From assembly GCF_016786255.1 (NCBI RefSeq), contig NZ_JADMKT010000062.1, positions 248,001-312,000 on the forward strand: a stretch of DNA of 64,000 nucleotides. The letters run 5' to 3'. Every line of letters begins with the position of its first letter. Within the stretch, counting starts at the first letter, position 1. Shown piece after piece: positions 50,301 to 64,000 of the stretch. Below the pieces are notes generated by a model that did no database searches, was not told the origin of the DNA, and saw only the letters and a list, made by a program, of their open reading frames with translations. This DNA is from Robertkochia sediminum (GTDB taxonomy: Bacteria; Bacteroidota; Bacteroidia; Flavobacteriales; Flavobacteriaceae). The position numbers and the translations under genes were made by a program.

Positions 50301-52013
50301 ATGCCCGAAACCAGCTTTAAACTCTGTCTTACCATGGCCGGTGCCGTTTCTGCCGGAGCCTATACCGCTGGGGTTATGGATGAACTTCTCGGGGTTCTTG
50401 ACCGATGGGAAAAAGCCAAAGCAAGGAACCTGGAACTGGGTATCGATCACCCTGATTACGATCACAGTATCCCTATGCACCGTGTAGAACTGGAAGTACT
50501 CAGTGGTGCCTCAGCAGGGGGGATCACCGCCACACTTGCCCTTAAAAAGATCCTGGATAGCAGTCATAGTACGCTTGAAAATAACAGCCTGCTTAAAGAC
50601 TGTTGGGTAAGTATGGCCGATGATGAAACACACTATACCCTCGAAAAACTCCTGAGTACCAAGGATCTCAATAAGGAGAAAAACGTACGTTCCCTCCTCA
50701 ATGCATACCCTATCGAAAACCTGGCCGACCGGTATTTAGCACCTCTGAAAAACCTTAAAAAACCTTCCTGGCTTTCTGAACAGGCCGAGGTGATACTCAC
50801 CACGACCAACCTCGAAGGCATCGATGTGAATATTGACTTTAACGGGGCCGGAACCGAAAACGGTGGTCATACGATTACCCAGCACAGTAGTGTATTCAGA
50901 TTTCACGCTATTACTGATGAAAAAGAACCTGTTCCAGAGCCTCACCGCTATGCCACCGACCTTCGGTTAAAAGAAGATGCCGCCCTGCTCAAAGCTGCTG
51001 CCCTGAGCACTTCGGCCTTCCCCATAGGATTACCTACCCGAAGCGTTACCTTGCCCCACGACCCCTACCTGAAATACCTGCCGGGGAAAGCTTCAGAAAG
51101 TAATCTGCACATCGATATAAAAAACCCTCATGCACATACACCCTTTCCGGCTATAGATGGGGGACTGCTCAATAATGAACCCTATGGTTGGGCATTAAAA
51201 GTACTCCGTGAGAACTGTGCACCCGCCTGTGAAAATAACCGGTATGCAGTGATCATGATCGATCCCCTTCCTTCAAAACCACCTTCCACGAAGTCTGTAG
51301 GATCCATGGGACTCTGGAATACCTTAACAGGAATGTTCCGCGCCTTGCGCAATGAGGTCATGCTCAACCAGGAAGGCCTGGCCGAAGCCATATCGCTTAA
51401 AGACCGCACCCGGTTTCTTATCGCTCCCCGAAAGGGAGGGGGTTACCCCGAAAAATGGAATGCCTTAGGCAAAGTCCTCGCCTCGGCACCCCTTGGCGGA
51501 TTCGCAGGTTTTATAGGGAAAGACCTCAGGGCGCATGATTACGAACTGGGCAGAAGAAACTGCAGGGATTTTTTGAGATTTCACTTTACCCTTCCGGTAG
51601 AAACGGCAAAGGTGCGCCTGGATCAACTTCCGGTTGAAACCGCCCTTGACCGATTTTGTATTGTACGCCGGGATAAAAGTGCTGCTTCAGTTATGCACTT
51701 TCCCATCATTCCCGATGTGCGTTTAAAAGAAGCCCGTAACCAAATACTCCTGGAAGGCCAGGTGGAATCAAAAACATATCCGGTACTGCCGGAATTCTCG
51801 ATGTCCGACTTCATTCAGCAATATCAACCCCTCATTAATAAGCGACTTATTGCACTGGTAAGGACCCTTTCCGGTAAATGGTGGCTCACCCTTGGTTTTC
51901 GTCTTTTCCTCCTTCGTCCGCTTCGAAAACAACTGTACAAGATCATCACCGGGGAAATGAAGTTCTTCGATCAAAATCAGGATGCCGTAGCAGCAAACAA
52001 TGAGGTGACTTAA
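50301..52013 (+). CDS. Patatin-like phospholipase
   Basis: A 570-residue protein with a patatin domain: LTMAGAVSAGAYTAGVMDE (oxyanion glycine loop), the nucleophile elbow LSGASAGG with Ser71 and the dyad Asp286 in AIDGGLLNNEP. It hydrolyses lipids or acyl esters. A C-terminal part of about 200 residues with RRNCRDFLRFHFTLP is found in a subgroup of longer bacterial patatins. No signal peptide, so it is probably cytoplasmic or peripheral. The start codon is immediately preceded by an 8-base tandem array, which suggests that translation or transcription could vary with copy number. Confidence 0.9.
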   Translation: MPETSFKLCLTMAGAVSAGAYTAGVMDELLGVLDRWEKAKARNLELGIDHPDYDHSIPMHRVELEVLSGASAGGITATLALKKILDSSHSTLENNSLLKDCWVSMADDETHYTLEKLLSTKDLNKEKNVRSLLNAYPIENLADRYLAPLKNLKKPSWLSEQAEVILTTTNLEGIDVNIDFNGAGTENGGHTITQHSSVFRFHAITDEKEPVPEPHRYATDLRLKEDAALLKAAALSTSAFPIGLPTRSVTLPHDPYLKYLPGKASESNLHIDIKNPHAHTPFPAIDGGLLNNEPYGWALKVLRENCAPACENNRYAVIMIDPLPSKPPSTKSVGSMGLWNTLTGMFRALRNEVMLNQEGLAEAISLKDRTRFLIAPRKGGGYPEKWNALGKVLASAPLGGFAGFIGKDLRAHDYELGRRNCRDFLRFHFTLPVETAKVRLDQLPVETALDRFCIVRRDKSAASVMHFPIIPDVRLKEARNQILLEGQVESKTYPVLPEFSMSDFIQQYQPLINKRLIALVRTLSGKWWLTLGFRLFLLRPLRKQLYKIITGEMKFFDQNQDAVAANNEVT

Positions 52014-52103
52014 AAGGTCTGGACAACGTGGTTAAACCGTGTTAAAACGATTTAACTAACTGATTTATTGATACTTACAGTTAAGTGTTGTATTTTTATA
52101 GCT

Positions 52104-52478
52104 ATGATAGCACTTGACAGAGAGAATAATAAAGATTTTTTGAATCAGACAGTAAGTTACCTTGAAAACAGAGGTTTTAACAACATCAAAGCAGCCTTAG
52201 ACGGTTACGAATCTCCAAAATCGTTTACCAAAAAAGGTAGTGATGTGGTCGTAACCCCTGATATCGTAGCTCAGAAAATGGGGATCAAGTACTATTTTGA
52301 ACTCAGTGTAAAGTCGGAAAAGCCCAATCTTCTAAAATCAAAATGGATGTTTTTGGATGCCTTGAGCAAAAGAAACTCCTCCCGCTTTAAGATCGTGACC
52401 ACCAAGGGTCACTATAAGTTTACCAACACCATGTTAGACGATCTGAACCTTGAAAAGAACATGATCAAGATCAATTAG
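52104..52478 (+). CDS. Hypothetical protein, possible restriction-endonuclease fold
   Basis: A 124-residue soluble protein; the ATG at 52104 is preferred over 52068, which would add a hydrophobic piece with two Cys and no clear role. The middle has SDVVVTPDIVAQKMG and YYFELSVKSEK, a strand-turn-strand with acidic and Lys residues that recalls the PD-(D/E)xK layout, but the spacing E-L-S-V-K differs from the E-x-K motif, so the link is weak. A TATTTTTA box lies at 52091-52098. The gene overlaps the end of the GNAT gene on the other strand by four bases. Function unknown. Confidence 0.72.
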   Translation: MIALDRENNKDFLNQTVSYLENRGFNNIKAALDGYESPKSFTKKGSDVVVTPDIVAQKMGIKYYFELSVKSEKPNLLKSKWMFLDALSKRNSSRFKIVTTKGHYKFTNTMLDDLNLEKNMIKIN

Positions 52479-52915
52479 TCTCTGATCATACGAACATGAG
52501 GAATTCCATCCTCCAGGTACGTTTCTCCCACAGCCCTGAATTTGTGGTCGTTATAGAACTTCTCGAGATAGGTCTGCGCTGAGATCTCAATAGGCTGTTT
52601 GCCAAACCTGGTTTCTATCGTTTCGATAGAAGCCCTGAGTATGTCATGTCCAAAAGCCTTACCTCTGGCGGTTTCAGCTACCACCACACGGCCAATACTG
52701 GGTCTGTCAAAATAATCGCCACCGGTAAATAAACGGGTATAGGCTACCAATTGATCGCCTTCATAGCCCATAACGTGCAAGGCCTTTTGATCCTTGTTAT
52801 CAACATCCTGGTACACACAATCCTGTTCTACTACAAATACGGCTGCACGTAAACGCAGCAATGCGTAGAGTTCATCAATATTGAGTTCATTAAAGGTTTT
52901 AACCACGATCTTCAT
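52475..52915 (-). CDS. GNAT-family N-acetyltransferase (ElaA type)
   Basis: A 146-residue acetyl-CoA-dependent transferase of the ElaA subgroup. The opening LYALLRLRAAVFVVEQDCVYQDVDNKDQ is the ElaA hallmark, followed by LVAYTRLF, IGRVVVAETARGKAFGHDIL (the pyrophosphate-binding motif A) and PIEISAQTYLEKFY. The acceptor is not known. Last gene of a three-gene minus-strand operon with rpiB and a CDF transporter; 12 bases follow the CDF stop. Confidence 0.9.
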   Translation of the reverse strand: MKIVVKTFNELNIDELYALLRLRAAVFVVEQDCVYQDVDNKDQKALHVMGYEGDQLVAYTRLFTGGDYFDRPSIGRVVVAETARGKAFGHDILRASIETIETRFGKQPIEISAQTYLEKFYNDHKFRAVGETYLEDGIPHVRMIRD

Positions 52916-52927
52916 AAAGCAACATTT

Positions 52928-53842
52928 TTAATCCTGAACAATATAATCCTTGGGATCTTCCTTGTTGAATTCCGGTTGAATATTCACATGATTGATCCCG
53001 TATTCTTCCTTAAGGATCGTTTCGATCTGTGCGAGGATCTCATTGAATCGACTAAGGGTGATATCTTTTTTAAAATCGAGATGGGCTTCCAGGTGCAGCT
53101 CATCATCGTTAAGTCCCCATACATGAATATGATGGAGTTTATTAACATCTTCCAGTTGGTGTACCGAACGCACCAGGGCTTTAACATCGATATGGTCCGG
53201 AGTAAATAACATAAGCATGCGGGTAGAGCTTCGCAAAAGATCATAGCCTACGTAAATAAGGTAGAGACCAATAAGAAAAGTAAGTACACTGTCTATCCAG
53301 TAGATGCCGAAAAATTTCATGAGCAATCCGCCTATCAGCACCGCAACACTGGCCATCATATCGGTTAACAAATGTAGGTAGGCAGAACGCATATTAATAT
53401 TGCGGCCGGCATCCTTTTTAAGAATGAGCACACTTAAGCCGTTGGCAACGATACCTAAAATGGCAAGCCATATGACCAGGCCAGTGCCAATGGGTTGCGG
53501 ATCGAGAATGCGTTTATACGCCTCGGCAATTAGAATAATAGCAATAACGATAAGGGATACCGCATTGATAAAAGCAGCGATGATCTCTGCGCGCTTGTAC
53601 CCGAAAGTTCGGTGTGTAGAAGCCTTGGTACGCGCCAGCCTGTTAGCCACATAACTAATAATTAAGGAGATGACATCGGTAGCATTGTGAAGGGCATCAG
53701 ACAGGAGGGCTAAACTTCCGGAGATCAACCCTCCTATAACCTGAGCCAGGGTAATACAGATATTGAGCAGGATCGAGATCAGTAGATTCTTACCCTTTAA
53801 AGGTTGATGAGCTCCGTGATCGTGACTATGCCCGTGTCCCAT
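52928..53842 (-). CDS. Cation diffusion facilitator (CzcD type)
   Basis: A 304-residue metal/proton antiporter of the CDF family, probably exporting Zn2+ or a similar metal. His-rich start MGHGHSHDHGAH, six membrane helices (about 20-185) with the metal site residues in LLSDALHNATDV and LLTDMMASVAV, then a cytoplasmic domain with VHQLEDVNKLHHIHVWGLNDDELHLEAHL. It begins two bases after the rpiB stop, so the two genes are coupled. Confidence 0.94.
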   Translation of the reverse strand: MGHGHSHDHGAHQPLKGKNLLISILLNICITLAQVIGGLISGSLALLSDALHNATDVISLIISYVANRLARTKASTHRTFGYKRAEIIAAFINAVSLIVIAIILIAEAYKRILDPQPIGTGLVIWLAILGIVANGLSVLILKKDAGRNINMRSAYLHLLTDMMASVAVLIGGLLMKFFGIYWIDSVLTFLIGLYLIYVGYDLLRSSTRMLMLFTPDHIDVKALVRSVHQLEDVNKLHHIHVWGLNDDELHLEAHLDFKKDITLSRFNEILAQIETILKEEYGINHVNIQPEFNKEDPKDYIVQD

Positions 53843-53843
53843 A

Positions 53844-54278
53844 TTAACAACCTAATGGGATCTTGTTAATTCTTCCTTCGTGGCGTCCGCCCTCGAATTC
53901 AGTATTTAAAAAGGTTCTCACCATTTCAAGAACCTGTTCTTTAGCGGTAAAACGCGCAGGCATACATAATATGTTTGCATTATTGTGTAAGCGCGTAAGC
54001 TCAACGAGCTCTTTGCTCCAGCACAGGCCGGCTCTTACATTAGCGTGTTTGTTTGCCGTCATGGCTACCCCGTTACCACTACCGCAAAGAAGGATCCCGT
54101 AATCGACCTCTCCTTTATCTACTGCCGAAGCTACAGGATGCACAAAATCAGGATAATCAACACTGTCAGCAGCGTCGGTACCACTATTTATAACTTCAAA
54201 ACCCATACCTTTTAACATGTCAACAATAGCGAACTTGTATTCGGTACCGGCATGGTCGTTTCCAATGGCAATTTTCAT
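53844..54278 (-). CDS. rpiB: Ribose-5-phosphate isomerase B
   Basis: A 144-residue sugar-phosphate isomerase of the pentose phosphate pathway. IAIGNDHAGTEYK opens the fold, with the active-site Cys in LCGSGNGVAM, and ARFTAKEQVLEMVRTFL near the end. Normal length. It is the first gene of the operon with CDF and GNAT genes. A -7 box (TACCTTTG) lies at 54307-54314, about 29 bases upstream. Confidence 0.95.
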   Translation of the reverse strand: MKIAIGNDHAGTEYKFAIVDMLKGMGFEVINSGTDAADSVDYPDFVHPVASAVDKGEVDYGILLCGSGNGVAMTANKHANVRAGLCWSKELVELTRLHNNANILCMPARFTAKEQVLEMVRTFLNTEFEGGRHEGRINKIPLGC

Positions 54279-55043
54279 AGTTTGTTTTATTTAAATGAAC
54301 ACCCCACAAAGGTAGTAAATACCTACATCTTACACTTATAAACACCCCTTATTAACGATGTTCGGTAATGAACTGAAAAACAAAACCTTAATAAAACCCC
54401 CGAATTGTTGATAAATGGAAAGTTATTTCTACTAAAAAAATTTGGTGGGTTAAATGCAATTTTCCATTGGTGAAATTTTAGGTTTCTAACAAGTGGAAAA
54501 TGTATTTTTTAATTGACAATTCTTAAACCGGTTTCACATACAAATCAACATTGTTAACAAGCATTATTTATTAAAAAACAACCACTGTTCACAGTTGTTC
54601 ACAACTGTTAATTACATCTAAAAATCCCTTGATTCTTAACGCTATATCCGGTTAACGGATTGTTCATAACGATGTAAAACACTACTCTTAGTTAAAATAC
54701 CAAATACTTCGGTAAAAAGTTATACCTGTTATGAACACCCTATAATAGACATCTAAAATTTTAATTTTAAAAAGAAGAAAAAAGAATATAATAGTATAAT
54801 GGTTAATAAGTGAATAACCTGTTTTGAATTTTGAAGTGAGTGTTTGGTAGGAGAAAGGAAAAGGTTGAAAGGGTCCTGAAAGGTGTTTGGGAAAATGAGC
54901 GAAAGGAGAACTGGAAAGGTGAGGGATGTTTTGGAAAGTAGGGCTGGTGGCATGGTGAATCCGGAAAAGCGTTTTGGAAAGGATGGATATGGTGGCGCTG
55001 TGAATCCGGGAGGGTTTCAGAAAAAGGGGAGAGGCCTGCGGGA
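54279..55043. other. AT-rich gene-free block with TGTTCAYAA motif cluster
   Basis: No gene in 765 bases. From 54279 to about 54830 the sequence is AT-rich and holds five related 9-base motifs: TGTTGATAA (54406-54414), TGTTCACAG (54586-54594), TGTTCACAA (54596-54604), TGTTCATAA (54661-54669) and, reversed, TTATGAACA (54729-54737). Palindromes AAACCGGTTT (54525-54534) and TTGTTAACAA (54551-54560) are also present. From 54830 to 55040 the plus strand is purine-rich with a repeated GTGAATCCGG. A -7 box for rpiB sits at the left end. A candidate replication origin or regulatory region. Confidence 0.7.
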
Positions 55044-55286
55044 TCAAACTACGCGTAGGTGAGAAGCGGGATCTTCGAGGTCGTTAATAAGTTCGGCGAC
55101 GTAATCGGCGTAGTCCTTATGTACCAGCAAACGTATACCTCCCAAGGCATTCGAATAAAAAGGAGATATCCCTATCATGGTTTCGTTCTCGAAGACATAG
55201 GGTATACCTTCTTCCTCCATGATAAAACGCAATACCATGTATTCATGAGGATACGTAAAGGTGGCGATATGTTGAAAATGGGTCAC
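55044..55286 (-). CDS. DUF2007-type small protein
   Basis: An 80-residue protein resembling the DUF2007 (putative signal-transducing) family: FTYPHEYMVLRFIMEEEGIPYVFENE is its usual opening, then GGIRLLVHKDYADYVAELI. The fold is a small alpha/beta unit also found fused to other domains. No molecular function is established. It is a single gene; a small membrane protein gene lies 59 bases upstream of its start on the same strand, so the two may be co-transcribed. Confidence 0.85.
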   Translation of the reverse strand: MTHFQHIATFTYPHEYMVLRFIMEEEGIPYVFENETMIGISPFYSNALGGIRLLVHKDYADYVAELINDLEDPASHLRVV

Positions 55287-55345
55287 TGCTAATCTATTGA
55301 TTGTCAGTTCTAAAAATAAGAAAAAAATACGGAGGATAAACAGCC

Positions 55346-55504
55346 TTATGCATGTTTACCAAGAGAAGTGGTTACTCTTTCGATCTCTGCTGCCTTAGCC
55401 TTTTCTTTTTGATCCAGGCTGTAGTTAATATAGCCCGCAAGTGCACCTATCCCCAGAACAAAGAGGATGATAAAGAGCAGTAAGATGCGATAGAATCTTT
55501 TCAC
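55346..55504 (-). CDS. Small single-helix membrane protein (52 residues, GTG start)
   Basis: A 52-codon frame from GTG: positive start (KRFYR), one strongly hydrophobic helix (ILLLFIILFVLGIGALAGYI, about 7-26), then a short charged tail with DQKEKAKAAEIER and a SLGKHA end. It has the normal layout of a small bacterial membrane protein with the N terminus inside. The codons are unremarkable and the spacers on both sides are proper. No ATG is available, which makes the GTG the only start. Function unknown. Confidence 0.6.
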   Translation of the reverse strand: MKRFYRILLLFIILFVLGIGALAGYINYSLDQKEKAKAAEIERVTTSLGKHA

Positions 55505-55636
55505 TTAAGTGGTGGCTTTATTATAAAGACGAATAAGTTCTTTAAACGTTACACTATTTTTAATATTATTTTAACGCTGGAAGTAATTAACAGGAGCTGT
55601 TTAATTATTCGTACTTTCGAAGTATAAAATTAGTAT

Positions 55637-57832
55637 ATGTCAAAACGTAAAAAGAGATCAGAAAAGCAACGGAAGAATGAGATCACGAAAGGAATCTTTT
55701 CTGTTCTTGAGAGTAATCCCGATAAATCTTATAACTACAAACAGATCGCTGCCAGACTGGATATTACCGATACCGCAGGTAGAAATCTCATCATCAAACG
55801 ATTAGGAGAACTGGTTGGTAAGCAACGTATCGAACAAGTAGAAAAAGGAAAGTACAAAGTAATTCCCAGTCAGAACTATTACGAAGGTGTCGTAGACATG
55901 ACCGGGAGAAGCAATGCCTATGTGATCTGTGAAGATCTCGATACCGATGTATTCGTACCCCAGAACTTATTGAACAAGGCCCTTCATGGCGATACCGTAG
56001 AAGTGTATGTATTTCCCAGACGTCGAAGAGGAAAGAAACTGGAAGGAGAGATCACCAGGATACTTCAACGTAAAAAGACCACCTTCGTAGGGGTGTTACA
56101 GATGCAAAAGAATTTTGGCTTCGTACTCACGTCCGACCATAAAATGTACACCGATATCTTTGTTCCCAAGAACAGGATAGGAAAGGCTGAACACGGCGAC
56201 AAGGTGATCGTTGAGATCAACGACTGGCCAAAGAATGCCGATTCACCTTATGGTACTATCGTAGAAACCCTTGGTAAACCAGGGGAGCACGATACCGAGA
56301 TGCACGCCATTCTTGCAGAGTATGGATTGCCTTATTCGTTTCCGGAAGAAGTAGAACACTTTGCCAATCAGATAGATACTTCTATTAAACCCGAAGAGAT
56401 CGCTAAGCGAAGGGACATGCGTGAGGTGCCTACATTTACCATAGATCCTAAAGATGCAAAGGATTTCGACGATGCTTTGTCTTTCAGAAAGATCGATGAT
56501 GAGTGGTACGAAGTAGGGATCCATATTGCCGATGTATCTCACTATGTACAGCCCGGAACTATTCTCGATGATGAGGCTTACGACAGGGCAACTTCTGTTT
56601 ACCTGGTAGACAGGGTAGTGCCCATGCTGCCGGAGATCCTGTCGAATAATGCCTGTTCGCTAAGGCCTAATGAAGAAAAATACACCTTCTCTGCAGTTTT
56701 TACCATGAATAAGAAAGCAGAGATCAAAGACCAGTGGTTTGGGAGAACAGTGACCTATTCAGACCGGCGATTTGCCTATGAAGAGGCACAACAACTCATA
56801 GAGAACGGGGGTACCACCGTACCCGGATCGGTTTCTCTTACAGGGAAGGCTTATGAGGTCGAACCCCATATAGCTCAGGCCATTCAGCTTATGGATAGCA
56901 TGGCGAAGACCATGAGAAAGAAACGTATGCAGGCTGGTGCTATCTCTTTCGATAAGGTAGAGGTGAAGTTCAACCTCAATGAAGAGAACGAACCGGTAGG
57001 GGTGTATTTTAAGACCTCCCAGGATGCCAATAAGATGATCGAGGAATTTATGTTGCTGGCCAATCGCAAGGTGGCCGAATTTATTGGGAAACAGAAAAAG
57101 ACCTTTGTGTACAGGGTACACGACGACCCGGATGAAGAAAAATTAATGCAGTTACAAGGCGTTATTAAACGTTTTGGATACAGTCTTAATATGAAGAGCA
57201 GAAATACCATTACAAGCTCTTTAAACAGCCTTTTAAAAGATGTACAGGGTAAAAAGGAGCAGAATCTCGTAGACACCCTGGCTATAAGAACCATGAGTAA
57301 GGCTGAATACACTACGGAAAATATTGGGCATTACGGACTCGCCTTTGATTATTACACTCACTTTACTTCACCCATACGGAGGTATCCCGATGTGATGGTG
57401 CACAGACTATTACAGCACTATCTGGACCAGGGAGCTACAGTAAAGGAGGCCGATTACGAAGAGAAGTGTAAGCATTCGTCGAATATGGAATCCCTGGCAG
57501 CCAATGCAGAAAGAGATAGTATTAAGTACATGCAGATCAAGTTCATGGAAGATCATCAGGATGAAGACTTCCTGGGAGTGATCTCCGGGGTAACCGAATG
57601 GGGGATCTATGTGGAGATCATCGAGAATAAATGTGAAGGAATGATCAGAATACGGGATATCAAAGACGACTATTATGTGTTTGATGAAAAGTTGTATGCC
57701 ATAGTAGGAGAAGTTACCAAGAATCAATATCAATTGGGAGATGAGGTGTATGTTCGCGTAAAGAATACAGACCTGGTAAAGCGCCATCTCGATTTTTCAT
57801 TATTGGGTAAAAAGGACGAATATCAACCATAA
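55637..57832 (+). CDS. rnr: Ribonuclease R
   Basis: A 731-residue 3'-to-5' exoribonuclease that degrades structured RNA. N-terminal winged-helix (about 12-75), two cold-shock domains (about 80-230), the RNB catalytic domain with TIDPKDAKDFDDALSF holding the Mg-binding aspartates, IHIADVSHYV, YTHFTSPIRRYPDV, and a C-terminal S1 domain with GVISGVTEWGIYVEII. The Lys-rich tail of some homologues is absent. A -7-like box (TACTTTCG, 7 of 8) lies at 55612-55619. The next gene begins 14 bases after the stop, so it may share the transcript. Confidence 0.97.
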   Translation: MSKRKKRSEKQRKNEITKGIFSVLESNPDKSYNYKQIAARLDITDTAGRNLIIKRLGELVGKQRIEQVEKGKYKVIPSQNYYEGVVDMTGRSNAYVICEDLDTDVFVPQNLLNKALHGDTVEVYVFPRRRRGKKLEGEITRILQRKKTTFVGVLQMQKNFGFVLTSDHKMYTDIFVPKNRIGKAEHGDKVIVEINDWPKNADSPYGTIVETLGKPGEHDTEMHAILAEYGLPYSFPEEVEHFANQIDTSIKPEEIAKRRDMREVPTFTIDPKDAKDFDDALSFRKIDDEWYEVGIHIADVSHYVQPGTILDDEAYDRATSVYLVDRVVPMLPEILSNNACSLRPNEEKYTFSAVFTMNKKAEIKDQWFGRTVTYSDRRFAYEEAQQLIENGGTTVPGSVSLTGKAYEVEPHIAQAIQLMDSMAKTMRKKRMQAGAISFDKVEVKFNLNEENEPVGVYFKTSQDANKMIEEFMLLANRKVAEFIGKQKKTFVYRVHDDPDEEKLMQLQGVIKRFGYSLNMKSRNTITSSLNSLLKDVQGKKEQNLVDTLAIRTMSKAEYTTENIGHYGLAFDYYTHFTSPIRRYPDVMVHRLLQHYLDQGATVKEADYEEKCKHSSNMESLAANAERDSIKYMQIKFMEDHQDEDFLGVISGVTEWGIYVEIIENKCEGMIRIRDIKDDYYVFDEKLYAIVGEVTKNQYQLGDEVYVRVKNTDLVKRHLDFSLLGKKDEYQP

Positions 57833-57846
57833 ATAATTAGCGTATC

Positions 57847-58521
57847 ATGAAGCAGTTCATGGCAGCGATCGCAATGTTGATCGTATCATTTGCAATAGCC
57901 CAGGATGAGGTGGAATATCCTGTAGACGATTTTTCAGAACTCAAGGTATTTGACGGAATTTCGGTAAAACTAATTCCCGGAAAAGAGAACAAGGTCGTGA
58001 TCAAAGGAGAAGATGCAAGATCGGTTACGGTAAGATGGGTTCGCGGGAAACTTAAGATCCGTATGGAGATTGAAAAGCTCTTTAGTGGGTATGCCACCTT
58101 TGCTGAAGTGTACTACAACAAACCCTTATCGGTATTGGATGTAAACGAGAATGCGCTTATTACCTCAGATGAGGTGATCGATCAGGTCGATCTCGAACTC
58201 AGGGCACAGGAAGCAGGTGAGATCGATCTAAAGGTTGCCCTGAAACGGCTACGTGTAAAATCGGTTACCGGAGCGACCATTGCGGTGGAAGGCTCAGCCA
58301 AAAATCAGGTGGTCGATGTGAATACCGGTGGTGGTTATGAAGCGGGAAACCTGGAAACCGAGCAAACCGAAGTGGAAGTGAATGCCGGAGGATATGCCGA
58401 TATCAGGGCCTCAGAATATGTAGACGCTACCGTGCGTGCAGGCGGAAATATTAATATTTACGGGAAACCACGGGTGATAGACCAAACAAAATTTCTCGGC
58501 GGAACCATAAAAGAATTTTAA
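57847..58521 (+). CDS. Exported GIN-domain (DUF2807-type) protein
   Basis: A 224-residue protein with a signal peptide ending near AIAQ (about residue 19). The beta-helix-like DUF2807 (head GIN) pattern is clear: FSELKVFDGISVKLIPGKENKVVIKG, then repeated short strands with DVNENALITSDE, LRAQEAGEIDLKVA, VKSVTGATIAVEGSA, VEVNAGGYADIRAS and VRAGGNINIYGKP. The function of the family is unknown; members are common in Bacteroidota. The gene starts 14 bases after rnr and could be expressed with it. Confidence 0.88.
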   Translation: MKQFMAAIAMLIVSFAIAQDEVEYPVDDFSELKVFDGISVKLIPGKENKVVIKGEDARSVTVRWVRGKLKIRMEIEKLFSGYATFAEVYYNKPLSVLDVNENALITSDEVIDQVDLELRAQEAGEIDLKVALKRLRVKSVTGATIAVEGSAKNQVVDVNTGGGYEAGNLETEQTEVEVNAGGYADIRASEYVDATVRAGGNINIYGKPRVIDQTKFLGGTIKEF

Positions 58522-58608
58522 AAAGTAAATTTGTGTTGCGATAGGCCAACCCTTCACGGGTGAACTATGGTCATTATGTTTGCGATCTAATAAAATTGAC
58601 CCCGTTTC

Positions 58609-59289
58609 ATGATAGAAGATATTGCTTCGGGCATCCCATTAGGAATATTACTCTCTTTTACGATAGGCCCTGTTTTTTTTGTGTTATTAGAAACAGGTGC
58701 CCTTAAAGGATTCAGGGCTGCTATGAGCTTTGATGTAGGGGTGGTGTTGGGGGATATCCTCTTTATTCTTATCGCATACTTTAGTACCAACCGGATCCTT
58801 GAACGGATTAAGGACGATCCGTCCCTGTTTATTTTTGGGGGTGCGTTACTCATTACTTATGGGGTCATATCGTTTATACGATCTAAGAAGGCCTATAAGA
58901 AAGAAGTGGATAAGGATGTGGTCGAAGTGATCAATAAGAACAATTACCTGCATCTTATTCTCAAAGGATTTCTACTCAATTTTATCAATGTGGGAGTGCT
59001 TGGATTTTGGTTGGGGATCATTATTATTTTTGGTCCCAGATTAGAGATGAACGAAGGTCGTATCTTCGTCTTTATCAGCTCCATACTCATCACGTATATG
59101 CTGGTAGATGCAGTGAAGATCCTTTTGGCAAAACAATTAAAGCACAGGCTCACGCCTTACCTGATCTTCAGGGTCAAAAGGGTGATTAGCCTGGTGTTGA
59201 TCTTTTTCGGAATGGTATTGATGTTTCAGGGGTTCTTTCCTAAGGAAAAGGAGAAGATCAAAGGAGTAATTGAGAATATTAGAACCTGA
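58609..59289 (+). CDS. LysE-family transporter
   Basis: A 226-residue inner-membrane protein with about six helices. The N-terminal SGIPLGILLSFTIGPVFFVLLETG is the LysE/RhtB hallmark (G-x-x-x-G-P), and the middle has LLNFINVGVLGFWLGII, the second conserved block. Members export amino acids or other solutes. A charged cytoplasmic loop (RSKKAYKKEVDKD) lies between helices 3 and 4, and a basic tail follows the last helix. It starts 87 bases after the GIN-domain gene and is followed by a DoxX-like gene 14 bases away. Confidence 0.88.
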   Translation: MIEDIASGIPLGILLSFTIGPVFFVLLETGALKGFRAAMSFDVGVVLGDILFILIAYFSTNRILERIKDDPSLFIFGGALLITYGVISFIRSKKAYKKEVDKDVVEVINKNNYLHLILKGFLLNFINVGVLGFWLGIIIIFGPRLEMNEGRIFVFISSILITYMLVDAVKILLAKQLKHRLTPYLIFRVKRVISLVLIFFGMVLMFQGFFPKEKEKIKGVIENIRT

Positions 59290-59303
59290 TAATACCTAGG
59301 ATT

Positions 59304-59687
59304 ATGTTTTACTTAAAAATGCTTATTCTGCTATTTGTACTGATCACTTTTTTGCAAAGTGGTTTGGATAAGATCACCGATTGGAAAGGGAATGTTACCT
59401 GGTTGAACGATCATTTTAAAGACACGGTTATCAAAGGTATGGTGCCAGTTTCCCTCGGATTTATCGTACTGCTGGAGATAGCCACGACAGTGACCACGTT
59501 TTTGGCCTTTTATGAGCTGTTTACAGATGGTGGTAGTTATTGGGCACAAATGAGTTTAGTGATCTCAGGAGTTACCCTGTTAATGTTGTTACTAGGGCAG
59601 CGACTTGCTAAGGATTACGATGGGGCTAGAACCATAGTGATCTATCTGATGCCTGTCTTTTTCGGGTTATATCTCTTTGCGGCTTAG
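59304..59687 (+). CDS. DoxX-like membrane protein
   Basis: A 127-residue protein with four predicted helices (about 3-20, 44-66, 76-97 and 105-125). The N-terminal LITFLQSGLDKITDWKGNVTWLNDHF is characteristic of the DoxX/DoxD group in this phylum. No enzymatic residues are defined; members often occur with redox or envelope genes. Probably co-transcribed with the LysE gene. It ends four bases inside the convergent AsmA-like gene. Confidence 0.85.
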   Translation: MFYLKMLILLFVLITFLQSGLDKITDWKGNVTWLNDHFKDTVIKGMVPVSLGFIVLLEIATTVTTFLAFYELFTDGGSYWAQMSLVISGVTLLMLLLGQRLAKDYDGARTIVIYLMPVFFGLYLFAA

Positions 59688-61177
59688 ATCATATTCACTG
59701 TTATTCCTTTTTGAGCGCAAAGCCACATATAGTTAAAGAATGACCGCTCCTGATTACGGGTTATCGTGAACTTTTCTTCTTCATTGAGATCCCTCTTTTT
59801 TGGCACTATAAAATTAGCGATAGAACTCAGGATCTTTTTGGCTCCACCTGTTTTCTTGTTAACAAGTGTAACCTCGAATTCATCGTAATTAAGGTAGGAT
59901 CTTCCCTTGGCACTTATATGATCCCCGGAGGCGTTGATGTAAGCATTATTTATAATGCCCTTGTTGGTCATGTTCATGTTCGTTTCGGTAAACGAATTGA
60001 ACGTGGCAAAATTTACCTTGTGCATGTATAAATGCATGTCGAAATGTGCACTTTCAGAAGCCAGTGGTAGGGTACATGAGCCTTTTACAAGGCCCTGGCT
60101 ACCTGAATTGGCACTAAAATTTATGAAGACAGTATCTTTTTCGATCGTATTAAGGCGATATATATTGTTTTGTATGTTGTTCAGGGTAACACTACCGTAA
60201 TTGTTATTTTCCGGCATACGTTCTCCATAGGTTAGTTTACCATTGTTTATAAGTACCGAGTCTAAGGCGATCTTTAGTGGAATGTCATTCAGAAGGGTGG
60301 TTAACATGGGCTTTTGTGTATTCTTACGGGCGATATGTTTATCTCTGAATATATCCAGTTGAAGTCCGTTGATGGCGATATGATCAGCCTTGAAAACACT
60401 ATCAGAAAGTTGGGTGATATCGGGTTGATGGAGTTCAAGGTTGTTAATCGTTCCTGAGATCCAATCGTCCTGATAGGGAATGAATTTACTGTAATTGTAT
60501 TTGTCATGAGTAGGGCGTAATAAAAGATGTTCTAAGGTCCATTTTTCTTTCGTTAGTTCCATACGGGCCAGGGTTACCCGTGATAGGGTATTCGGTTTAA
60601 TAATGGTATTTAAGATCGTTAGACGATACGCTCCAATTTTTGGGGGAGCGTTATTTTCCGGGTCTGTTGATAAGTCGGTTATCGCTATTCGGAGACTCGG
60701 GAGCGACATCAGGGTATCTTTTGATGTGTCCTGTCGAAGGATCTTTCCGTTATTTAGAAAGATGTGTTTGATCTGTATGAAGGGTTTGTTACTGTCGGTC
60801 TCGTTTACCGGGGGCAGGGGTAAGGTATCGTATCGGGTTATGTATAGCAGGGGACTATCGATGATAAGACTGTCTAAACGTACGGTGTTGTTAAAAATAT
60901 AATCAGAGTAATGAATACCCTGTACTCGTATTTCCGGGATGGTAACCAGGATGGAATCTGTTGCTGTATATGTATTGATCTGCGCTTGTTGAATAGAGAT
61001 GCTTCTGTTAAGCAGGTCTATTTCAGAATGGTTAGTACTCAGGGTAAAACCCGGAAATTCCAGGTAATTCAATTCTGATATAAATTGTTTCTTTTTGTAT
61101 TCAACAAAAAGAAAAAGGATCAAGGCGATAAGCAGGAAGACAAGGAAGAACAGGCTTAAGCTTTTACGAGTAGCCAT
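59684..61177 (-). CDS. AsmA-like envelope protein with one N-terminal anchor
   Basis: A 497-residue protein with an N-terminal membrane anchor (LSLFFLVFLLIALILFLFVEY, about 6-26), the remainder in the periplasm. It is rich in short beta strands with repeated INTYTATDSILVTIPEIRV, LIIDSPLLYITRYD and LRIAITDLST units, a pattern seen in AsmA/DUF748-type proteins that form long lipid-transfer grooves. A helical and basic stretch near the end (KKTGGAKKILSSIANFIVPKKRD) is followed by a polar tail that includes two Cys-free strands and one Cys. The family match is a judgement from pattern, not from a clear motif. Confidence 0.7.
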   Translation of the reverse strand: MATRKSLSLFFLVFLLIALILFLFVEYKKKQFISELNYLEFPGFTLSTNHSEIDLLNRSISIQQAQINTYTATDSILVTIPEIRVQGIHYSDYIFNNTVRLDSLIIDSPLLYITRYDTLPLPPVNETDSNKPFIQIKHIFLNNGKILRQDTSKDTLMSLPSLRIAITDLSTDPENNAPPKIGAYRLTILNTIIKPNTLSRVTLARMELTKEKWTLEHLLLRPTHDKYNYSKFIPYQDDWISGTINNLELHQPDITQLSDSVFKADHIAINGLQLDIFRDKHIARKNTQKPMLTTLLNDIPLKIALDSVLINNGKLTYGERMPENNNYGSVTLNNIQNNIYRLNTIEKDTVFINFSANSGSQGLVKGSCTLPLASESAHFDMHLYMHKVNFATFNSFTETNMNMTNKGIINNAYINASGDHISAKGRSYLNYDEFEVTLVNKKTGGAKKILSSIANFIVPKKRDLNEEEKFTITRNQERSFFNYMWLCAQKGITVNMI

Positions 61178-61204
61178 GATGTTCTTATTTAGGTATAATT
61201 TAAA

Positions 61205-61235
61205 AAATAAAACCCTCGTAATGAGGGTTTTATTT
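61205..61235 (-). terminator. Bidirectional terminator after the Skp-like gene
   Basis: AAATAAAACCCTC pairs with GAGGGTTTTATTT around GTAAT; it works in either direction and lies 23 bases after the stop of the minus-strand gene. Confidence 0.92.
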
Positions 61236-61257
61236 AATTATTTAAAGAAGCGAGTTG

Positions 61258-61773
61258 TTATTTTTCTTCTTTGTATGCGGTGTTCAGGGAACGTAGTACG
61301 TCGGCTGTGATATCTTTTGAGTTCTCACCGTAAAATACATTTCCACCTTCATTTTCTGCAAGGATGTATGTGTATCCGTTTTTCTTACCGTAGTCCTTAA
61401 CGAATGTTCTTACTTTCTTTACGAGTGAATCTACTGCTTGTCCGCTCTCCTGACTAAGGAGCTGTTCTTCGTTTTGGAATTGTTGAGCGAGTTGTTGGCG
61501 CTTTTGCATCAATTCGTTGTATTTTTCCTGTGCTTTGTTCTGACTCATTTTCTGAGCGCTGTTTTGGAACGACTGGATCTCTTGTTGAAGAACGGCAGAA
61601 GAACTATCTAATTTTTGTTGGAACTTTTCGAATTTTACTTTGTACTTATTTTCTAGATCGATCTTCTCCTGGTATTCTTTGATCAGTTTGGTATTATCAA
61701 CAAAAGCGATCTTGTCTTGGTTACATGAAGCAGCAAGCATCGCGGTAAGCAAAATTAAGGGAAGTTTTTTCAT
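61258..61773 (-). CDS. OmpH/Skp-family periplasmic chaperone-like lipoprotein
   Basis: A 171-residue protein of the Skp (OmpH) family that guards unfolded outer-membrane proteins. Lipobox ends at Cys18 (LAASC), which is unusual for Skp but common in this phylum. The mature part opens IAFVDNTKLIKEYQEKIDLE, then a long coiled coil (about 45-125) rich in Gln and Lys, and ends with the compact body GYTYILAENEGGNVFYG. Length matches the family. A -7 box (TATTTTTG, minus strand) lies at 61800-61807. Single gene with its own promoter and terminator. Confidence 0.9.
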   Translation of the reverse strand: MKKLPLILLTAMLAASCNQDKIAFVDNTKLIKEYQEKIDLENKYKVKFEKFQQKLDSSSAVLQQEIQSFQNSAQKMSQNKAQEKYNELMQKRQQLAQQFQNEEQLLSQESGQAVDSLVKKVRTFVKDYGKKNGYTYILAENEGGNVFYGENSKDITADVLRSLNTAYKEEK

Positions 61774-61799
61774 GAATAGGTTTTTGTTTTGTCTACGCC

Positions 61800-61807
61800 C
61801 AAAAATA
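61800..61807 (-). promoter_or_regulatory. -7 box of the Skp-like gene
   Basis: TATTTTTG matches TAnnTTTG fully, 26 bases before the start codon. The rest of the 215-base spacer up to 61988 is AT-rich with no feature seen. Confidence 0.65.
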
Positions 61808-61988
61808 GAAATTCTGGAGGGTTGAGGGTAGGGTTGTGCGTTTATTTTATGTTATAGATTTTACTTATAGATTTTTTAATACACATCAAAGTCTTTTATT
61901 TAAACTAACGTATTTAAACGACTTTTAAGCTATGTTTATAACTTTTTGAAGTAAGTTATCGTCTACTTAAAGTAAACCGTCTTAGATC

Positions 61989-62831
61989 TTATTTATTTGT
62001 GTTTTTACGGATAATATAGATCAAAGAAGAGCATTCACCATCAAAAAGTGAATTCAGGTTAGAAATGCTTCCGGTAATCGTGGCGCGTAAGGTGGTAAGT
62101 GAGTTTTTTCTGTATTTCTCACTAAGCAGACTTACATAGTAAGCGTCGAAATACATAGGTAAGATTTTTACTACATTTAATTTATGAGCCATACAAAGAT
62201 TTTGAACGGAGCTTTTATCGTAGTGCCATAGATGTCTTGGTACATCATATCCTGCCCATTCTGGTCCGTAGTATTTTGCATCCCAACTTTTATAATTTGG
62301 CAAGGCGATGATAAGTGTTCCATGATCTGTTAGACGTTCCCTTAGTTTAGCAATGGTTTCATCCGGCTCATAAAGATGTTCCAAAACATGCCATAACGTG
62401 ATCACGTCATATTGCGTTTCTGTTTCTTCTATGGATTTTATAATATGCAATCCTTTTTTACTAGCAATGCCTGCAGCTTTTGGATTAATCTCTATTCCTG
62501 TTTTCTGGTATGCTTTGGGCAGGTGATCCAGGAAGTCTCCTGTTCCACATCCAACATCCAGAACATTATGAATTTGATGCTGATATGTATTAAGGATACG
62601 CTCCTTTCGATTTAGATTGATCGATTTAATGGTTCGGTAGATCCTAGCAAAGAGGCCGGGTGCGGAATCGTCATGAGATAAATATTCCTCAGATTCGTAG
62701 TAGCGACCAATTTTTTCTTGTTCAGGTTGGGGTAGTGTCTTTAGAATGCCATAGGGAGGTACGGCTTTCAGTGTAAAGTTTTCTTTACTTAGGAAGTGAT
62801 CTTTAACCTGAATGGATTTAGGTGTTTTCAT
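61989..62831 (-). CDS. Class I SAM-dependent methyltransferase
   Basis: A 280-residue soluble methyltransferase. The SAM site is VLDVGCGTGDFLDHLP, followed by TGIEINPKAAGIA (acidic residue for ribose), ITLWHVLEHLYEP and LIIALPNYKSWDAKYYG. The fold matches the UbiG/Methyltransf_23 group, which often acts on small molecules, lipids or cell-surface sugars. The N-terminal 80 residues add a helical cap. Substrate unknown. It follows mnmG on the minus strand but is separated from it by the parS-like terminator. Confidence 0.9.
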   Translation of the reverse strand: MKTPKSIQVKDHFLSKENFTLKAVPPYGILKTLPQPEQEKIGRYYESEEYLSHDDSAPGLFARIYRTIKSINLNRKERILNTYQHQIHNVLDVGCGTGDFLDHLPKAYQKTGIEINPKAAGIASKKGLHIIKSIEETETQYDVITLWHVLEHLYEPDETIAKLRERLTDHGTLIIALPNYKSWDAKYYGPEWAGYDVPRHLWHYDKSSVQNLCMAHKLNVVKILPMYFDAYYVSLLSEKYRKNSLTTLRATITGSISNLNSLFDGECSSLIYIIRKNTNK

Positions 62832-62860
62832 GGGGTAAACTTACAGTAATTAGGTGGTAA

Positions 62861-62894
62861 AAAAAATAGCGTTCCACGTGGAACGCTATTTTTT
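62861..62894 (-). terminator. Terminator of mnmG containing a parS-like site
   Basis: A perfect 34-base palindrome without spacer: AAAAAATAGCGTTCCAC mirrored. Its centre CGTTCCACGTGGAACG (62870-62885) matches the ParB binding site consensus TGTTnCACGTGnAACA at all positions except the outermost pair. A run of T on both sides makes it a bidirectional terminator, 20 bases after the mnmG stop. Confidence 0.8.
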
Positions 62895-62913
62895 TATTTT
62901 TACATGAGGTTAA

Positions 62914-64000
62914 TTAGCGACCCATATATACAAGCATAACAGAAATATCACTTGGTGAAACACCACTAATTCTTGATGCCTGGGAGAGTGTCTTTGGCTG
63001 GATGCTTTTTAATTTTTCTCTGGCTTCGAATGAAAGTGATTTCAGTTTGTTGTAGTCAAAGTTATCAGGGATCACAATATTCTCTAAGCGATTCAGCTTG
63101 TCTGCATTGTTCTTTTCTTTTTCAATGTATCCTGAATATTTTACCTGGATCTCGGTTTGTTCCAATACCTCACTATCGAGAGCGTGCGCGGTAATATATT
63201 GATCAACTTCCGGTAGTCTTCGCATATGATCCAGGGTAACTTTTGGACGGCTATAGATCTTGAACATCTTGTCGGATTGTTTCATCGGTGAGGAGTTCAG
63301 ATCTTCCAAAATAGGATTTATGGCCTCGGGGGTTACGCTGGTATTTTTAAAGAAATGGATGAAATCTTTCGCTTGTGTTTCTTTTTCCTCCATACGTTCC
63401 ATACGGTCCTTTTTAGCAAGTCCGATCTCAAATGATCTTGGAGTCAGTCGGAGGTCGGCATTGTCCTGTCTAAGTAGCGTACGGTATTCTGCTCTTGAAG
63501 TAAACATTCGGTATGGTTCTTCGGTACCCTTTGTGATGAGGTCGTCGATAAGTACACCGATATATGCTTCGTTTCGTTTGAGGATAAAGGGATCTTTCTC
63601 TGCACATTTCAACGCAGCGTTGACTCCCGCCATTAGGCCCTGGGCAGCTGCCTCTTCGTAACCTGTGGTTCCGTTGATCTGTCCGGCGAAATATAGACCG
63701 GAGATCAGTTTGGTTTCGAGGGTATGTTGTAGCTGCGTAGGTGGGAAGTAGTCGTATTCGATGGCATATCCCGGACGGAAGAATTTGACGTTTTCGAATC
63801 CGTCAACAGAACGCAAGGCTTTGTATTGAACATCTTCCGGAAGGGAAGTAGAGAATCCGTTTACATATACCTCTACCGTATCCCAACCTTCGGGCTCTAC
63901 GAATAATTGATGTCTGTCTTTATCTGCGAAGCGGTTGATCTTGTCTTCGATGGAAGGGCAGTATCTGGGTCCAATACTTTTAATACGGCCATTGAACATA
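62914..64000 (-). CDS. mnmG: tRNA uridine-5-carboxymethylaminomethyl modification enzyme, 5' end cut by window edge
   Basis: The C-terminal 361 or more residues of MnmG (GidA), a flavoprotein that works with MnmE to modify U34 in several tRNAs. Visible: FNGRIKSIGPRYCPSIEDKI with the conserved catalytic-type Cys, EGWDTVEVYVNGFSTSLP, LISGLYFAGQINGTTGYEEAAAQG (FAD contact), FTSRAEYRTLLRQDNADLRL, and the C-terminal helical domain that binds MnmE, ending RISGVSPSDISVMLVYM. The FAD-binding N-terminal part lies beyond the right edge. mnmG is near the replication origin in many bacteria. A terminator with a parS-like centre follows the gene. Confidence 0.96.
   Translation of the reverse strand, partial: MFNGRIKSIGPRYCPSIEDKINRFADKDRHQLFVEPEGWDTVEVYVNGFSTSLPEDVQYKALRSVDGFENVKFFRPGYAIEYDYFPPTQLQHTLETKLISGLYFAGQINGTTGYEEAAAQGLMAGVNAALKCAEKDPFILKRNEAYIGVLIDDLITKGTEEPYRMFTSRAEYRTLLRQDNADLRLTPRSFEIGLAKKDRMERMEEKETQAKDFIHFFKNTSVTPEAINPILEDLNSSPMKQSDKMFKIYSRPKVTLDHMRRLPEVDQYITAHALDSEVLEQTEIQVKYSGYIEKEKNNADKLNRLENIVIPDNFDYNKLKSLSFEAREKLKSIQPKTLSQASRISGVSPSDISVMLVYMGR

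Follow-up and report, generated by a model that had tools for sequence, protein, structure and literature searches.

Organisation of the mnmG locus

The window analysed here, a 64-kb stretch of a 334-kb contig (C53), ends within the 3' part of mnmG (gidA; 62914..64000, minus strand), which was assigned with TIGR00136 (860.9 bits) and continues past the window edge to C53:312785. Directly 3' of mnmG lies a perfect palindrome (62860..62895, minus strand as a hairpin), followed by a SAM-dependent methyltransferase-like gene (61989..62831, minus strand; weak UbiG/MetW-like matches), which is co-directional with mnmG and begins some 29 bp beyond the hairpin. The centre of the palindrome is a 14-bp core, GTTCCACGTGGAAC (62871..62884), which matches the pattern GTTNCACGTGNAAC exactly, and the palindrome is a strict extension of this 14-mer by 11 bases on each side. 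An earlier note on this DNA had described a perfect palindrome at 62861-62894; the palindrome is indeed present, with a length of 36 bp and not 34, and its central 16 bases (62870-62885) read CGTTCCACGTGGAACG as claimed. The chromosomal parS consensus of Bacillus subtilis is TGTTNCACGTGAAACA (PMC7022226, PMC10197239). The core shows no mismatch to GTTNCACGTGNAAC, and at the two ends of the 16-bp consensus this site has C...G instead of T...A.

A terminator scan returned a 16-pair stem with a 4-nt loop spanning 62860-62895, with a folding energy of -20.4 kcal/mol as against -5.0 for shuffled sequences (z = -7.2). On the minus strand, which is the direction of mnmG, the palindrome region reads AAAAAAATAGCGTTCCACGTGGAACGCTATTTTTTT and is followed by one more T. 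The hairpin is located about 20 nt past the mnmG stop codon, carries a U8 tail and has the parS core as its inner stem and loop. The suggestion that the palindrome is also a good terminator of mnmG is thus upheld as a prediction, based on the fold and on the covariation described below.

Two copies of the motif flank mnmG

The complete set of contigs of this genome (3.53 Mb, 82 contigs) contains exactly two matches to GTTNCACGTGNAAC and none to a reversed control pattern. The single exact match in the window is the one at the 3' end of mnmG, while the second, GTTTCACGTGGAAC (L005:4801-4820 = C53:312801-312820), is found at the opposite end of the gene, shortly after the window ends, so that the two sites, 1,935 bp apart, lie one on each side of mnmG. 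The second copy lacks a hairpin and is embedded in the final codons of ybeY (…EEEKMALFHVEH and the stop codon; C-terminus …LFHVEH), 20-21 bp before the mnmG start. As judged from their sequence context, both sites overlap another function, a predicted terminator hairpin in one case and the ybeY 3' end in the other. Approximately 0.2 matches to GTTNCACGTGNAAC per 3.5 Mb are expected by chance, as estimated from base composition, and the occurrence of two within 2 kb is therefore not attributable to chance. A genome search permitting two mismatches gave only background (75 matches, 146 for the reversed control) and was rejected as a source of further sites.

The upstream site imposes the C-terminus [LM]FHV(E/K)(Q/H/R) on ybeY at this locus and in many relatives, and among the 29 upstream sites lying inside a long ORF nearly all share this frame.

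Conservation across the relatives

Each of the five genomes of the genus carries exactly two sites, separated by about 1.9 kb. Across the family the motif was identified in 296 of 299 genomes (201 of 203 genera), nearly always twice, and matches to the reversed control were rare. The motif was not found in the three other genomes (G008, G111 and G203) and mnmG was not detected in them either, indicating a joint absence of motif and gene; all three do have a chromosomal-type ParB. G111 is a single contig with 99% completeness, and the failure to find mnmG and an exact parS beside its ParB may reflect a real loss or an assembly gap.

The mnmG loci of 80 named relatives (Bizionia, Winogradskyella, Flavobacterium, Polaribacter, Chryseobacterium, Algoriphagus and others) were also scanned. 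Together with the present locus, 67 of the 81 loci have the motif on both sides of mnmG, nine upstream only, three downstream only and two on neither side, the loci of Tenacibaculum and Polaribacter being among those with the upstream site only. Outside the family, most loci in a phylum-wide sample still have between one and four sites no more than 1.5 kb from mnmG, and four loci have none. In the 257 sites pooled from the relatives, position 4 is occupied by C or T only and position 11 by G or A only, although the search pattern left both positions free, and most of the sites carry the outer T...A of consensus parS. The parS consensus therefore emerges from the pooled sites without having been imposed by the search pattern.

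Arrays of about six to seven parS sites, spaced by about 40-90 bp, take the place of the single site upstream of mnmG in three Flavobacterium loci (L086, L088 and L081) and in L157. At G287:C1:2989028-2990895 (L162, L166), mnmG seems to be split into two overlapping frames by an apparent frameshift, with the parS sites intact.

Position relative to the putative replication origin

GC skew was computed from contig stretches. On the 334-kb contig, about 300 kb of negative skew give way to positive values, and the cumulative curve is lowest at C53:302,753 (window position 54,753). This position falls within an AT-rich, repeat-bearing gap extending from rpiB to a small ORF before rnr (54279..55040), which is a putative oriC. 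The four other members of the genus and G128, which belongs to a different genus, likewise have their minimum in the rpiB-rnr gap, at 7.2-8.4 kb from the parS pair. The fine position of the origin covers these six genomes, and beyond them a coarse, sampled skew was used; in the single-contig genomes G128, G262 and G353 the sampled skew places the chromosome-wide minimum close to mnmG. In six further single-contig genomes, a search of the 20 kb downstream of mnmG did not find an rpiB-rnr arrangement.

The earlier note had proposed that further copies be sought and compared with the skew minimum. The search returned one more copy, which lies outside the window and had been missed in that note, and the two sites lie roughly 8 and 10 kb away from the minimum, the window site at 8.1 kb. 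The skew switch is thus close to the site, and the motif is not scattered evenly but limited to the two copies that flank mnmG.

In the putative origin gap, classical DnaA boxes are represented by at most one or two near-matches per genome, with no convincing cluster. The gap holds conserved blocks such as AAAAGTTATACC…TTATTAACAAG, and within window positions 52001-64000 the GC content declines towards the putative-origin side, with values of about 0.47 dropping to about 0.40. The dnaA gene is far from mnmG, at about 2.0 Mb in G128 and about 0.75 Mb in G353, and is on a different contig in the present genome. This placement agrees with a report that dnaA is an unreliable origin marker in gut bacteria including Bacteroidetes (PMC10197239).

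The partition proteins

The parB gene, the lack of which would have spoken against a ParB site, is present in the genome in a parA-parB operon on a contig other than that of mnmG. The operon is followed by genes that, from their sequences, we take to be dapB and then lepB. The ParB protein matches TIGR00180 with 165 bits and the ParB/Spo0J chains of solved structures with E-values of about 1e-45 to 1e-51, and contains the GERR and ENxQR motifs. Residues contacting parS were taken from PMC7383237, in which R173 and G201 are described as absolutely conserved in ParB. By hand mapping from alignments, the protein retains the equivalents of Caulobacter Q162, G170, K171, R173, N178, G201 and R204, while S172 is replaced by K; it thus has the R173/G201 pair of parS-type proteins.

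The top NCBIfam match of the protein by score is the Noc model (237.5 bits), from a related protein family. Assignment to the Noc/NBS system, which pairs an TATTTCCCGGGAAATA-type site with a Q173/R201 protein, was however rejected, since the score is below the 315 cut-off of the model, the site has a CACGTG core and the protein carries R and G at the two positions.

In eight single-contig relatives parB is about 0.65-1.4 Mb from the parS pair, as measured by direct comparison of coordinates with circularity ignored; parS therefore sits at the origin, away from parAB. Both parAB and dnaA are far from parS and mnmG in G128, G262 and G353, and are on contigs C60 and C69 in G000. The condensin loader ScpA was not found in the six genomes searched (G000, G003, G128, G262, G353 and G119, the present genome included), while nine of 14 control genomes have it. 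This fits the report of two Bacteroidetes without a known condensin (PMC10197239). ParB may work here by ParA-driven partition without Smc-ScpAB.

A gene flanked by two palindromic sites, one of them abutting its start, could also be expected if the palindrome were an operator for another regulator, for example of mnmG or ybeY, and not a ParB site. It is very hard to reconcile such an operator with sites that equal the parS consensus down to the pyrimidine and purine at the two free positions and that adjoin the skew minimum and occur almost nowhere else, in a genome encoding a parS-type ParB, and this explanation is considered extremely improbable. Motif, copy number, position, conservation, skew and the presence of ParA and ParB all support the parS-like ParB site that had been proposed, from which we infer the binding itself.

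Covariation and age of the hairpin

The 14-bp core is identical across the genus while the outer stem varies, being TAGC/GCTA in two of the five members and GAGC/GCTC, AAGGT/ACCTT and AAAGG/CCTTT in the others. In this small set of five sequences, 97.3% of the outer-stem cells are paired as against 41-65% in slid controls, and four pairs have changed on both sides with no one-sided change. The stem has thus been kept by compensatory change in these five sequences, as in intrinsic terminators. A core held fixed by ParB and an outer stem held by RNA folding would be expected to produce such a pattern, as two separate constraints.

The hairpin and the T-run are also present in the nearest sister genus (G223 and G031) and in scattered lineages (L052, Olleya; L160; G039), and L059 (Cellulophaga) has a long hairpin with a weak T-run. 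G128 and most other relatives have the parS core without a hairpin. The bases flanking the core pair at 3.03 of 6 positions on average at 116 downstream sites, and at 3.08 of 6 at 141 upstream sites. Since downstream sites are not enriched over upstream ones, a family-wide co-option of the site as a hairpin was rejected, and the equally unpaired flanks point to a lineage-specific co-option. On the sequences compared, parS is the old feature and the predicted terminator the newer one. Relatives that keep the terminator and lose the core, which the earlier note had named as evidence against its proposal, were not observed; the opposite is seen, with the core kept and the hairpin mostly absent. 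Its estimate that a terminator would match parS by chance once in 16,000 was framed the wrong way round, as the terminator is apparently a late addition to an old parS.

The strong hairpin with a T-run directly 3' of mnmG would by itself be compatible with an intrinsic terminator whose stem resembles parS by accident. That such an accident is the explanation has hardly any probability, given that the core is conserved over about 200 genera, most of them without a hairpin at the site, that a second, non-hairpin copy lies at the other side of mnmG and that within the genus the outer stem varies in a compensatory manner around an invariant core. Conversely, the hairpin and the T-run could be incidental to a parS site and terminate no transcription; most relatives have a downstream parS without a hairpin and mnmG is nevertheless kept. 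This is rather improbable, though less so than an accidental resemblance, as the extended stem and U tract are present in all five genus members with four compensatory pair changes, and the nearest sister genus has the hairpin as well.

Probable functions and comparison with known systems

The palindrome 3' of mnmG is thus very probably one of two ancient origin-proximal parS sites. The reading favoured here, to which a probability of roughly 0.88 is given as a whole, is that a parS pair has flanked mnmG at least from the common ancestor of the Flavobacteriaceae onwards and that its downstream member also serves as the predicted terminator of mnmG in this genus and in the nearest sister genus. 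From sequence evidence we infer ParB occupancy, partition function and termination activity.

Binding of parS by ParB dimers, loading of ParB as a CTP clamp and ParA-driven movement of origins are established for the ParB family in other bacteria. By analogy, a ParB dimer would bind GTTCCACGTGGAAC with one monomer per half-site and load there as a CTP clamp, and both sites flanking mnmG would together nucleate a ParB complex through which ParA moves the freshly replicated origin region. The flanking bases of the downstream site have become self-complementary and T-tailed in this genus and in the sister genus closest to it. RNA polymerase leaving mnmG would then copy parS into RNA, in which the flanks extend the self-complementarity to form the terminator, and selection would be divided between the sequence of the 14-bp core, for ParB binding, and the pairing of the outer stem, for the RNA hairpin. 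The hairpin can be made only once polymerase has crossed parS, and such a terminator therefore cannot protect parS itself, but it could shield the DNA beyond parS, towards the origin. It is conceivable, though unlikely, that ParB loading and mnmG termination influence each other and that a link between partition and termination arose more than once by a hairpin built around parS; ParB might, for example, act as a roadblock aiding release, or the terminator might keep polymerase off the ParB-covered, origin-facing DNA.

The parS site itself belongs to a known kind. It resembles the chromosomal parS/ParABS systems in its GTTNCACGTGNAAC core, in the few copies beside the skew minimum, in a position conserved among relatives and in the cognate ParA and ParB encoded. 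It differs from them in that one copy is in a predicted terminator hairpin and the other in the last ybeY codons, and in the distant parA-parB and the ScpA not found in the genomes given above. A partition system in which parS was kept at the origin while parAB moved far off thus emerges. The origin cluster of Pseudomonas and Bacillus has the order gidA-gidB-parA-parB. The present arrangement is similar in having parS and gidA (mnmG) together near the origin, but only parS has stayed with gidA, with parAB and dnaA elsewhere in the single-contig relatives examined. As an origin marker independent of dnaA, the two parS sites flanking mnmG appear reliable in the Flavobacteriaceae.

No description of a composite parS-terminator with covariation was found in the papers covered, the 2007 parS survey (Livny et al.) not being among them, and part of this may be known. 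Literature joining parS with terminators yielded nothing relevant in titles and abstracts. As in other Rho-independent terminators, a GC-containing stem and a U tract follow the stop codon. Unlike in those terminators, the upper stem and the loop are probably fixed in sequence by the DNA-binding site and only the lower stem can covary, so that a single DNA palindrome would be subject to two separable constraints, protein recognition of its core and RNA pairing of its flank.
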